DNA of 64,000 nucleotides. It comes from Caulobacter sp. FWC2. Lineage in GTDB: Bacteria; Pseudomonadota; Alphaproteobacteria; Caulobacterales; Caulobacteraceae. Of the stretch, positions 54,105 through 58,269 are shown one piece after another. The stretch spans positions 4,650,001-4,714,000 of the forward strand of contig NZ_PEBF01000001.1 in the NCBI RefSeq assembly GCF_002742625.1, read 5' to 3'. The notes under the pieces were generated by a model. The model ran no database searches. It saw nothing but the letters and a program-made list of their open reading frames with translations, and had not been told where the DNA came from. A program made the translations under genes and the position numbers. Position 1 is the stretch's first letter; each line of letters opens with the position of its first letter.

Positions 54105-54572
54105 ATGATTGATCTCGATCAAATCGACCGCCGCCTGCTGGCCATCCTGCAGGAGGACGCCACCGTCGCCATCGCCGAGCTGGCCGAGCGGGTCGGCCTC
54201 AGCCAGACCCCGTGCTGGAAGCGGGTCAAGCGCCTGCAGGACGCCGGCGTCATCACCGCCCGCGTCGCCCTGCTGGACCGCGCGGCCCTGGACCTGAACC
54301 TGACCGTCTTCGTGGCCGTGAAGACCGGCCGCCACGACGAGGACTGGCTGACCCAGTTCGCGGCCGGGGCCAGTTCCCTGCCCGAGGTCGTCGAGTTCTA
54401 CCGGATGAGCGGCGACGTCGACTATCTGCTCAAGGTCGTGGTCAAGGACATCGCCGCCTATGACCGCTTCTACAAGCGCCTGATCGCCACCGCCCCGCTG
54501 ACCGACGTCTCGTCCAGCTTCGCCATGGAGCAGATCAAGTTCACGACCGCCCTGCCGATCTGCCCGAGCTGA
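54105..54572 (+). CDS. Lrp/AsnC-family transcriptional regulator
   Basis: This 155-residue regulator has an N-terminal HTH (about 3-50: LDQIDRRLLAILQEDATVAIAELAERVGLSQTPCWKRVKRLQ in pieces) and a C-terminal RAM ligand-binding domain (about 65-150; SGDVDYLLKVVVKDIAAYDRF). Members form octamers and sense amino acids. It is divergent from the DUF6356-YeiH pair, suggesting it controls export or import of a small amino-acid-like compound or anion. A palindrome lies just upstream. Confidence 0.94.
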   Translation: MIDLDQIDRRLLAILQEDATVAIAELAERVGLSQTPCWKRVKRLQDAGVITARVALLDRAALDLNLTVFVAVKTGRHDEDWLTQFAAGASSLPEVVEFYRMSGDVDYLLKVVVKDIAAYDRFYKRLIATAPLTDVSSSFAMEQIKFTTALPICPS

Positions 54573-55170
54573 TCTCCCTTCCCCCTCGATGGGGAGGAAC
54601 GTGTTTCATCGACCTCGCGCCGAGCGGCTGCGAGTGGGTATGGGGAGGCGACGGAGCGGCCGGGCGAACCCGGGGACCGTAATGGTTTGTGTGTGTTTCG
54701 GCTCGCTGACCGCTCCGCCAGGCTGTTCTTGCCCGTGAGGATGGGGGGCGTGAGCGTATTTCAGCTCGGGACCCCATTTGCCCCCGGACGGGCGCGGACC
54801 AAGTCGATCGGCTACATCCGTCTCGACCCCGACGATCCACGATAGGCGGCTTGTACGATCACCGCCCTGTCGCTCCGCTGATGGCTTGGCCCCGGACGGC
54901 TCCGTCACCCGCGTGCGCTCCTAAAGAGTAAGCGACGTGGCGCGATGGCTCCGCCAGGAACCGCCAGCGGCCCCGCTCAACCTACCCCCGCCGCCGTCTT
55001 GGGCCGGATCCAAACGCCCTCCCCCGCGACGGGGACAGCTCTGAGTATGCGGCGGTGTTGAACGCCGATGATCCAGGGGCGCGAAAAAGTGGGAAGGGAT
55101 TGATTTCGTGAGGTTCGGCGCCGCGAGCGCCGGGGATAGAGGCCGCCCAATCCTCGCGAGGGCGCCTTTT

Positions 55171-55364
55171 GAAACCCTCTCTCTTTGAGAGAGGGAGGGG
55201 CCCACGCCTGCGGCGTGGGAGGGTGAGAGGTTACACCCTCTCCGGACAAGGCGCCGACGAAACGCGCGGCGGAACGGTCCAGGCTTCCCCGGCCAACAGT
55301 GAAACCTCTCACCCTCCCACCGCTACGCGGCGGGCCCCGCCCTCTCTCAAAGAGAGAGGGTTTC
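55171..55364. repeat. Inverted pair of about 62-base REP-like elements
   Basis: The left element 55171-55232 and the right element 55301-55364 are near-identical inverted copies. Each begins GAAACCCTCTCTCTTTGAGA and ends GTGGGAGGGTGAGAGGTT. Each contains two internal palindromes: CCCTCTC...GAGAGGG, and a second (perfect CCCACGCC...GGCGTGGG in the left copy, less regular in the right). A 68-base spacer separates them. Confidence 0.8.
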
Positions 55365-55443
55365 CGGTGCGCGCCCCCTTCCCGTCCAAGCCGCCCTTCC
55401 GCCCCGGAAGAGCGCCCCCCTTACCTCTCACGGCGAGACGATC

Positions 55444-55531
55444 GCAGGGCTGTCCAGGTCACTCAGGGACCGCCCTCCGGGCGGCCGCACGCGGCGGCGA
55501 AGCCGTCCTTGACTGACCTGGACAGCCCTGC
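55444..55531. repeat. Long hairpin with 27-base arms
   Basis: GCAGGGCTGTCCAGGTCA (55444-55461) and its perfect reverse complement (55514-55531) extend inward to 27-base arms with two mismatches, around a 34-base loop that itself holds CCGCCCTCCGGGCGG. It could be a MITE/REP relic, a terminator or a structured small RNA. Confidence 0.7.
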
Positions 55532-55639
55532 ACGCTGCAGCCTCCAAGAGATCTAAGGCGGGCTCCCGACGCGGGTATAATTCCGGGCACCGCGACGCGA
55601 TGGCCAGCGCGAGCTAGACCTAGCGCTGCAACTACAAAG

Positions 55640-56143
55640 TCAAAGGGCCGGAAGGGGAACCGGCGTACCAATTTCCCGAAGTCTATCCCAGAGGGCTTTG
55701 GCAAGATCCATACGCTCAGGCGTCGCTTTTTGCGGCTTCCGTCTCGCGGTCTCTCCCCACCAATCTTGGACACCCGAAACTTTTAGGAATGCAGCGGTAG
55801 CGGCAAGCTCTAAGGTCACAGAATCGCTGGAGCAAGCTACGGCAACAATCTCTCGGGACTTTTCATCCACGTCGCCATTGTAAGATGTGGTGAAAACCGA
55901 GAATGTACCGCCCCATTGAGCGACACTTTCAGTCTCCGCAATAAGATCGTCAAGAATGGCGTCTTTAGTCGCAGTCGCGACTTCCTCGCTGTAAGGACCA
56001 TAGTAATGGTAAGTATAGGAGAAATCGGGGCTCAAACCAGCGATCTTCAGAATATATGCCGTTTTTTGAAGACGGGTTTTCCCAACCAAGCGCCCACCGG
56101 CTGCAGCGATAACGTTTCTGACAGCAGTTTCATGTTCGGTCAT
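55640..56143 (-). CDS. YwgA/Panacea-like protein
   Basis: This 167-residue soluble protein starts at ATG 56143, overlapping the HD gene stop (ATGA). Residues 20-33 (VGKTRLQKTAYILK) and 45-55 (YHYYGPYSEEV) give the helix-plus-YGPYS pattern of YwgA and of the distantly similar Panacea (SocA-type) domain. Panacea domains often neutralise toxins, and in Bacillus ywgA lies near the HD-phosphohydrolase gene ywfO. The partner here is also an HD phosphohydrolase. Third codon positions are visibly richer in A/T than in neighbouring genes, suggesting acquisition. It may be a regulatory or antitoxin-like partner of the HD enzyme; function is not established. Confidence 0.75.
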   Translation of the reverse strand: MTEHETAVRNVIAAAGGRLVGKTRLQKTAYILKIAGLSPDFSYTYHYYGPYSEEVATATKDAILDDLIAETESVAQWGGTFSVFTTSYNGDVDEKSREIVAVACSSDSVTLELAATAAFLKVSGVQDWWGETARRKPQKATPERMDLAKALWDRLREIGTPVPLPAL

Positions 56144-57498
56144 TTGCGTGCCTCGGTTATCAGGTCTTGCACTAGAGCTCTGGCCACATCGTCGTCTTGG
56201 CTGACGTAAAGCCGGTACCCGTGAAAGGGCTGAAGCGCTTGGACAACGTCGGACACATCCGCCAGGTCCATCGGGAGATCGTTTTCCAGAATGTGGATTC
56301 GTTCCATCCCGCCCTTTGTCGTTTCGTAGCCTCGTCGTTTGTACGGATTGCGCTCGAACTTATCGATCAGGATTCGGTGAACCAAAGATTGATCTGATGC
56401 GACCTTCTCTTGCCAAAGCCGCTTGAACTTGAGGACTCGTTGATCGATCTCGCGCCCCGCGTTCAAACGTCCATCACCCAGACCTCTGCGAACGTCGATT
56501 GCCTTACACAATGTGCGTGTGCGGAGCCTTTGCGCTGATTCGGCGATAATCGGATCGGAAGACTGCGCCAACAGCGCCAACGCCCCCCACACGACCGAGT
56601 CATCTAAATCGGCATAGTTAACAAGCGTCTTTCTATCTCGGAGATAGCGGACGAGCGGATGTGCGGCAGAAAGACCTGTCTGGTCGACCCCGCCTTCTTC
56701 AATCCGAGACTTCAGGGCGCGCATTAATGAGGAGAATACTTTCTCGGCCCCTCGGGTGGTTTTGTGAAGATAGACTGCAGGATAGAGATGGAAAAGCGAG
56801 AGCACGTAACTTTCTCCCGCCCATAGCGCTTTCGGACCGAGAACAAAAGTCGATATTTCCGCGAACTTCTGATCGTCCGAACCGATCTCGATATTACGAA
56901 CCTCAAGATTTCTGATCAACCAAGTGAAATCTATACCACCAAGCTGGGTGCCACTCATCATCCGGTCCCGACGCATGTAGTCAAGACGGTCAGCGTCGAA
57001 CTGACTAGACACTACAGAAGAATAGATATCTGGTGACGATTCACTCGTGAAGATCGAAGCGACCTCTTCTCCGAAGCCGGCCCGATAACTATTGAGCCTG
57101 TCGTAGATCGCAGTTTCGCGAATGAACCGCAGCGTCCATTCTTCGTGCCGACCAACCTCACCGAGAGCATCTTCGAACGCGTGACTGAACGGTCCATGCC
57201 CTAGGTCATGTATCAGAGCCGCAGCGATGGCGACGTCCGCACGGTCTCGATTGAAGTCATTACCAAGCTTCTCTTCCAAGACTCTGCATAAGAGCCTCGC
57301 CGTGTGGAAAACTCCAACGCTGTGAGCGAACCGGGAGTGTGTTGCACCGGGAAATACGAAATCTGAGAAGCCTAACTGTCGGATGCGTCGTAATCTTTGG
57401 AACTCGGGGCTCTCCAGCAGGCTCCAGATCATCCGTTCAAAATGCGTATCCGCGAACTCAATGAGGTCGTGGACCGGGTCTCTCAAGCGTTGAAACAT
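56140..57498 (-). CDS. HD-domain phosphohydrolase, SAMHD1/YwfO-like
   Basis: This 452-residue enzyme probably starts at ATG 57498, directly before the family opening QRLRDPVHDLIEF; a TTG at 57630 would add 44 atypical residues. Metal and catalytic residues follow the SAMHD1 pattern: His59 (RFAHSVGV), His97-Asp98 with His101 and His106 (IHDLGHGPFSHAFE), and Asp168 (SSQFDADRLDYMRRD). The family hydrolyses dNTPs to nucleosides and triphosphate; some members defend against phage by depleting dNTPs. Codon use is visibly AT-richer than the surroundings. It forms an operon with the YwgA-like gene. Immunity, toxin or nucleotide housekeeping are all possible. Confidence 0.88.
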   Translation of the reverse strand: MFQRLRDPVHDLIEFADTHFERMIWSLLESPEFQRLRRIRQLGFSDFVFPGATHSRFAHSVGVFHTARLLCRVLEEKLGNDFNRDRADVAIAAALIHDLGHGPFSHAFEDALGEVGRHEEWTLRFIRETAIYDRLNSYRAGFGEEVASIFTSESSPDIYSSVVSSQFDADRLDYMRRDRMMSGTQLGGIDFTWLIRNLEVRNIEIGSDDQKFAEISTFVLGPKALWAGESYVLSLFHLYPAVYLHKTTRGAEKVFSSLMRALKSRIEEGGVDQTGLSAAHPLVRYLRDRKTLVNYADLDDSVVWGALALLAQSSDPIIAESAQRLRTRTLCKAIDVRRGLGDGRLNAGREIDQRVLKFKRLWQEKVASDQSLVHRILIDKFERNPYKRRGYETTKGGMERIHILENDLPMDLADVSDVVQALQPFHGYRLYVSQDDDVARALVQDLITEARK

Positions 57499-57639
57499 TT
57501 CGATCCGATTCGCGCGTAGCGGGTACGTCACGGTAATCAATCTTTCTAGTGACAGTAACAAAAATGCGCGAAACAGATCCCGAGATATCTGTTCTCTTTT
57601 TGTTCTATTTCGAAATTCCCATGAGGGCAAGCCCCCCCC

Positions 57640-58269
57640 CTACTCCGGCCACAAATCCTGCACATCGCCCTTCCTATTCAGCATGTGCGTGGCCCGCTTG
57701 ATCAGCATCAGCAGGCGCTCTTTCCGGCCGTCCTTGTCGTAGGTCAGGGTCGTGCGCGCCAGGCCCTCCAGCATGAACCTCGCCAAGTCGCGGCTGGCCT
57801 GGAACCTCGGACCCGCCCCGGCGTGGAGGATCTTCAGGAAGTGGTCGCCGGCCTGGGCGCGGTCGAACTCGGCCTGGGCCGGGGCCAGCAGGGCGTGGAT
57901 GGCCGGGTCGGTGCGGCCGGCGTCCTCGAGCTCGCCAAAGGCCTGGAACGGCACGCTGTGCAGCAGGTCCCAGTAGCTGTCGATCGCGTGCTCGGTGACG
58001 TCGGCGCCGGCGGGCAGGTTCTCGGCGGCGGCGCGGAACAGGGTCGAGCGCTCGGCCTGGATGTGGGCCACGGCGGCCTCGACCAGGGCCTCGCGGGTGG
58101 GGAAGTGATAGAGCATCGCCCCGCGCGTCAGGCCGGCGGCGTCGGCGATCACCGGGTTGGTGGCGGCGTGGTAGCCGATCTCGGCGATCAGGCGCATGGC
58201 CTGGTCCAGAATCCGCGCGCGGGTCTTCTGGGATTTCGGCGTGTCCTTGGCGAGGCGGGCGGCGTCCAT
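57640..58269 (-). CDS. TetR-family transcriptional regulator
   Basis: This 209-residue repressor has an N-terminal HTH (about 15-62: TRARILDQAMRLIAEIGYHAATN, then ADAAGLTRGAMLYHFPTREALVEA in pieces) and a variable C-terminal ligand-binding domain. It ends right at a run of nine C residues (57632-57640). The neighbouring HD gene is in the same direction but 141 bases away, and plcP is divergent across 294 bases. No clear palindromic operator was seen, so its target is not identified. Confidence 0.93.
   Translation of the reverse strand: MDAARLAKDTPKSQKTRARILDQAMRLIAEIGYHAATNPVIADAAGLTRGAMLYHFPTREALVEAAVAHIQAERSTLFRAAAENLPAGADVTEHAIDSYWDLLHSVPFQAFGELEDAGRTDPAIHALLAPAQAEFDRAQAGDHFLKILHAGAGPRFQASRDLARFMLEGLARTTLTYDKDGRKERLLMLIKRATHMLNRKGDVQDLWPE

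Follow-up and report, generated by a model that had tools for sequence, protein, structure and literature searches.

What is a SAMHD1-like phosphohydrolase doing in a bacterium when its gene overlaps that of a small partner protein? The question is raised by two AT-rich genes in Caulobacter sp. FWC2, which lie in a stretch of 64,000 nucleotides of contig NZ_PEBF01000001.1 (positions 4,650,001 to 4,714,000; hereafter, the window). An earlier reading of the letters alone (the sequence-only reading) described the pair as an HD-domain enzyme with a YwgA/Panacea-like partner and suggested an immunity or toxin-antitoxin module. Our analysis confirms the overlapping AT-rich pair itself, and partly supports that interpretation; we read the pair as a putative partner-controlled antiviral deoxynucleoside triphosphate (dNTP) hydrolase (dNTPase). 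That the pair is a genuine conserved unit which also moves horizontally we consider nearly certain. The most economical reading of its function would be a caged dNTPase that is released on infection. The pair is laid out as follows:

56140..57498, minus strand: gene for an HD-domain predicted dNTPase of the EF1143/SAMHD1 branch, 452 residues from the ATG at 57498
55640..56143, minus strand: YwgA-family partner gene, 167 residues, with a predicted DarG C-terminal-domain fold
56140..56143, minus strand: 4-base stop/start overlap (ATGA) of the HD and partner genes, seen in the sequence
57499..57631, minus strand: AT-rich leader 5' of the likely HD start, with no clear promoter motif

Both open reading frames (ORFs) are present as described, including the overlap. 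The HD frame is open upstream to a TTG at 57630, where the listed ORF begins; homologues begin at or near the ATG at 57498, and this start gives the residue numbering H59, H97-D98 and D168 used by the sequence-only reading. Chance ORFs are ruled out by conservation and by the homologues detected, 673 for the partner and 7915 for the HD protein among 7995 candidates scored. Scans for promoters and terminators gave scores no better than those of shuffled sequences.

The HD protein matches the Pfam families HD (4.5e-11) and HD_assoc_2 (2.4e-6), and by sequence its best solved relatives are EF1143 (Protein Data Bank, PDB, E 4e-52), the Bacteroides phosphohydrolase BT4208, an Aquifex protein and SAMHD1. 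A structure model from 39 sequences (pLDDT 91.2, pTM 0.90) has the fold of the full-length family (2o6i, 4lrl and 3irh; E 4e-22 to 5e-20, TMq 0.75-0.79), its matches being in order EF1143 chains (the first ten), BT4208, fungal SAMHD1, the Aquifex protein and human SAMHD1. The PDB sequence match and the model fold thus both place the enzyme among dNTPases of the EF1143/SAMHD1 kind, as the sequence-only reading had proposed. The residues of the metal site and the catalytic histidines are intact: H97, D98, H101, H106 and D168 are invariant in all of the 72 pairs compared here and below (loci without an HD gene, or with a best HD ORF under 380 residues, were left out), and H59 is present in 71, the remaining one having a gap there. 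At position 29, which we take to correspond to the Asp with which SAMHD1 reads guanine, the window enzyme has E and 54 of the 72 pairs have Q. Matches to deoxyguanosine triphosphatase (dGTPase) families are weak. The host genome (5.5 Mb) holds one further weak HD-profile match (C1:3472265-3472579, E 5e-5), probably an ordinary dGTPase, and a match of the same kind occurs in 97 of 101 genomes searched. PMC8177086 and PMC12042053 contain passages that describe EF1143 as a dNTPase which forms tetramers and drains dNTP pools. Based on that description, the shared fold and the invariant metal site, dNTPase activity of the window enzyme is a well-founded prediction, as distinct from a result.

The partner belongs to the YwgA family, since a profile of 121 Bacillaceae-type YwgA matches finds it at 7.8e-10, and several of its relatives carry the YwgA name from their source annotation; Pfam gives no match above cut-off. 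Its one outstanding structural match is the C-terminal domain of DarG, a neutralising domain. The Panacea-like label of the sequence-only reading is not supported as membership of that family: PF13274 gives no match at E 1 and an hhalign probability of 17%, and it has no match in the host genome at 1e-10. Because the partner matches the DarG antitoxin domain better, the toxin-antitoxin idea loses its Panacea footing and survives through a different family. We found no macrodomain match in the 167 residues, and the neighbouring gene encodes the HD enzyme rather than DarT. Searches of Pfam, NCBIfam, PADLOC and PHROGs, each taken to E 1, gave no nucleotidyltransferase family. A search against viral protein folds gave nothing below E 0.001, the top two being archaeal-virus proteins. 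Membership of a known defence system was considered and rejected, as PADLOC gives only weak dGTPase and partial DarG matches of note. The fold assignments of both proteins are predictions that rest on confident models.

The N-terminal half of the partner also resembles winged-helix regulators, and a protein of this kind might act as an autorepressor of the operon that makes no contact with the enzyme. We regard this as very unlikely, given that such a repressor would sit downstream of the gene it controls, that the leader has no reported inverted repeat of the operator type, and that the DarG match spans most of the protein and has almost double the strength of the winged-helix match.

How tightly are the two genes linked elsewhere? 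In a survey that begins from the partner, its profile found 98 loci, of which 80 were kept, and 74 of these have an HD gene directly upstream on the same strand. The genes overlap in 69 of the 74, by exactly 4 bases in 19, and the HD frame is partial or split in six (L012, L017, L027, L036, L058 and L077). At four of the six loci without an HD gene, the partner lies within 283 bases of the contig start. At the other two there is room but no upstream HD gene: the partner follows an ABC/AAA ATPase in L062 (6144-6692) and sits beside a chorismatase-like gene in L074 (4543-5118). Distances between HD proteins and between partners are correlated at 0.87 over the 72 pairs, and the maximum in 2000 permutations was 0.25. 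The suggestion that the two genes form a conserved unit is therefore borne out, and the linkage extends across phyla. Inquilinus limosus DSM 16000 has two clearly different copies of the pair in one strain (L034 and L037). A search of 385 genomes of the class with the HD protein at 1e-25 gave 15 matching genomes, of which the five best are paired (one, G191, across a contig break) and three distant ones have an HD gene followed by a diverged YwgA gene. The partner search of the same 385 genomes gave six matches, five of them paired; the sixth, G465 (50.6 bits), has no HD match at threshold. In total, the pair is present in 8 of the 385 genomes, host included.

In the mechanism that we propose, the HD enzyme is predicted to hydrolyse dNTPs, the YwgA-family partner with its DarG-like fold would likely hold the enzyme inactive by binding to it, and phage infection would free the enzyme, so that phage DNA synthesis is starved. 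Release might come through loss of a short-lived partner or through a phage product, the two routes being equally open. As a whole, caging of the enzyme until infection releases it is a proposal to which we give slightly less than even credence. Several observations weigh against it. The partner's match to the DarG C-terminal domain has a Foldseek E value of only 0.005, part of the protein can be likened to winged-helix regulators as described above, and a modelled likeness to that domain does not show that the HD enzyme is its target. The HD enzyme misses the cut-off of the curated anti-phage dGTPase model NF041026 (24.1 of 400 bits). The correlation of 0.87 would also arise from shared descent without interaction. 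Finally, seven of the 15 HD-matching genomes have no detectable partner, and six of these score above the three most distant paired ones, which suggests that this branch of HD enzymes need not be toxic when unguarded. The existence of such unpartnered relatives is compatible with another role, in which the partner would be a sensor or activating subunit, recognising some phage product and then turning the dNTPase on instead of holding it off; overlapping genes and co-inheritance fit any dedicated subunit. We think it improbable, since the one outstanding structural match of the partner is to a neutralising domain.

The caging proposal also presumes a role in defence, for which the genomic setting of the pair is relevant. 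The GC content of the pair is 0.52, compared to 0.67 for the window, and GC at third codon positions (GC3) is 0.58 in the HD gene and 0.48 in the partner gene, with values of 0.96, 0.95 and 0.89 in three flanking genes. These figures bear out the AT-richness that the sequence-only reading had noted, as do the following features its mention of a repeat-rich gene-free region and a run of nine C beside the pair:

54105..54572, plus strand: AsnC/Lrp-family regulator, conserved left flank (Pfam; placed in relatives)
55165..55575, no strand: dispersed non-coding repeat bordering the cargo (genome matches), with 66-nt and 30-nt inverted repeats inside
55576..57634, no strand: variable cargo, not shared with the nearest relative, G033; identity to it (L107) breaks near 55575 and returns near 57635
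57632..57640, no strand: run of nine C, seen in the sequence, the right border, adjoining the TetR stop codon
57640..58269, minus strand: TetR-family regulator, conserved right flank (Pfam; placed in relatives)

The left border of the cargo falls near where the dispersed repeat ends. About 400 bp long, this repeat is matched 58 times across the genome when its own copy and inverted self-matches are counted, and five other copies are near full length with 77-94% identity. Part of it is also found beside the cargo in G033. In that genome, whose TetR gene is 99% identical, the slot holds an unrelated 541-residue ORF (L107:820-2445) with no Pfam match. The TetR gene was found in 34 relatives among 60 genomes searched; in these 34, AsnC lies on the same contig at 0.15 to 3.9 kb in 15 and at 21 to 23 kb in 5, is on another contig in 4, and has no match at threshold in 10. 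The interval between AsnC and TetR (window 54573-57639; L107-L121) is a variable slot of 0.15 to 3.9 kb in at least 15 relatives.

Just one of 60 other genomes of the genus, G025, has the pair, which there occupies a different site and falls far away in the tree, on a long branch whose placement is unsure. The pair looks like patchy cargo of foreign composition, with low GC3. The tree of the 72 pairs mixes orders and phyla, with 35 label changes for 16 groups (minimum 15; 26 when unassigned rows are removed). Since shuffled labels give a mean of 47.3, kinship is still visible. In IMG/VR, six predicted viral contigs were found through either protein and three carry both genes; the 28 ORFs beside these hits include two that match phage integrases, and there are matches to anti-repressors and to repressors as well. 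The partner was not found in annotated phage and plasmid records. For the HD protein, 11 phage records and 40 plasmid records gave matches, all of them at 60% identity or below. Of eight such records examined (7 of the 40 plasmid, 1 of the 11 phage), three hold another cassette described below, one is a Priestia HD gene with YwgA, and no YwgA was detected in four. In the phage record OR846587.1 (L179) and the plasmid record NZ_CP030101.1 (L087), the HD gene has ordinary bacterial genes around it or lies in a 'plasmid' of 2.9 Mb, and such records probably hold chromosomal DNA.

The Priestia record bears on both the age of the pair and its purpose. In Priestia megaterium, an HD gene (32% identical to the window HD protein over 70% of the query) is followed, after 23 bases, by a YwgA gene (profile match, 1.9e-19), and the old association that the sequence-only reading had drawn from Bacillus is thereby upheld, with this other member of the Bacillaceae standing in for Bacillus subtilis. 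The pair is set among pta, lipoate-ligase, tautomerase, site-2 protease and YwhD genes. These are apparently ordinary genes, a setting that suits nucleotide homeostasis and is a further point against caging for defence: the partner could tune a metabolic dNTPase with no immune role, and the alphaproteobacterial copies would merely be transferred often. YwgA is named in many Bacillaceae among the 120 matches listed, and in the Listeria, Staphylococcus, Paenibacillus and Enterococcus-type records examined, HD relatives adjoin ordinary genes with no YwgA detected beside them. Cleaning of non-standard dNTPs or of mRNA 5' ends has been proposed for YwfO, in a passage of PMC4993169. We nevertheless consider homeostasis rather unlikely, given the presence of the pair in so few genomes of the class, its foreign GC3, the different ORF at the site in the nearest relative, its carriage on predicted viral contigs and the second HD-profile match in the host.

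The sequence-only reading had also suggested a search for defence islands, and here the result is mixed. We used a simple gene caller to take up to two neighbouring ORFs of at least 120 residues per side and scanned 268 of 274, leaving out three over 1300 residues and three for the residue limit. PADLOC families are the best 25 of 47 in a set of 135 ORFs and the best 25 of 121 in a second set of 133. Type I methylases match at least five ORFs in the first set; the second has at least three DrmA, at least two DrmMI, at least two GajB and at least two type IIG enzymes. In the control, 16 arbitrary stretches rather than matched sites, 135 of 144 ORFs were scanned and had none of those defence families, only ten families with one member each, mad3 included. 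The enrichment (10/268 versus 0/135, Fisher p 0.016) is modest; the count of 10 takes the proteins to be distinct, and some of the GajB matches may be ordinary UvrD helicases. Some loci do adjoin restriction, DISARM or Gabija-type genes, but ordinary neighbours are found in the window and at several other sites, a number of them metabolic genes, which also counts against a defence role.

The other recurring cassette comprises a radical SAM protein (as annotated), a 3'-5' exonuclease, an AAA protein and a related HD protein, on plasmids of Sinorhizobium meliloti (L085:3626-7413), Labrenzia (L086:3788-7407) and Rhizobium (L090:3622-7413). The L085 copy of the radical SAM protein has no Pfam match. 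Nearby are a DncV-like nucleotidyltransferase and a ThiF gene in L085, a DNA methylase in L086 and an ABC three-component system in L090. This cassette has the look of a distinct defence system that employs a SAMHD1-type enzyme.

No defence pair of HD and YwgA proteins was among the papers listed in searches of the open-licence literature, and the terms HD domain and phosphohydrolase are absent from the Panacea papers there. Compared to Panacea (PF13274), the window partner has a weak motif likeness (LQK..Y...GP), without a Pfam match and with the low hhalign probability given above. The HD enzyme shares fold, metal site and HD-associated region with EF1143 and SAMHD1, but it has a tightly linked second gene, and none was detected in the EF1143-type records examined. 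Among the Bacillaceae, Priestia megaterium has the same order of an HD gene, which we presume to be YwfO, and then a gene labelled YwgA in source annotations, but there the pair lies among ordinary genes and not in a variable slot. As for DarTG, the window partner matches the C-terminal, toxin-sequestering domain of DarG, a fold for which the member studied most binds a toxin directed at DNA and blocks it, but the window partner has no fused macrodomain, and the HD enzyme stands in the place of DarT. That a stand-alone protein of this DarG/YwgA type cages a SAMHD1-type dNTPase in a new antiviral system is a tentative claim, more doubtful to us than not. If true, DarTG would draw its neutralising domain from one branch of an ancient enzyme-caging family with a SAMHD1-type dNTPase as the older partner, and bacterial SAMHD1-like immunity would have protein caging as a means of control in addition to nucleotide signals. 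The closest known arrangement is Clover, likewise a two-gene unit of an HD dNTPase and a dedicated partner. According to passages of PMC12265719, the dNTPase CloA is potently toxic alone, the nucleotidyltransferase CloB restrains it, and phage-raised dTTP is the trigger. The Clover partner is a Pol-beta nucleotidyltransferase, whereas the window partner has no such match and a predicted DarG-like fold instead, and the window HD enzyme is of the EF1143/SAMHD1 branch, with only weak likeness to dGTPases. Antiviral dNTPases must stay off in healthy cells, and Clover uses a nucleotide signal; if a DarG-type protein does control the window enzyme, it would be a second solution, would provide a function for the widespread YwgA family and would connect SAMHD1-type immunity with DarTG.
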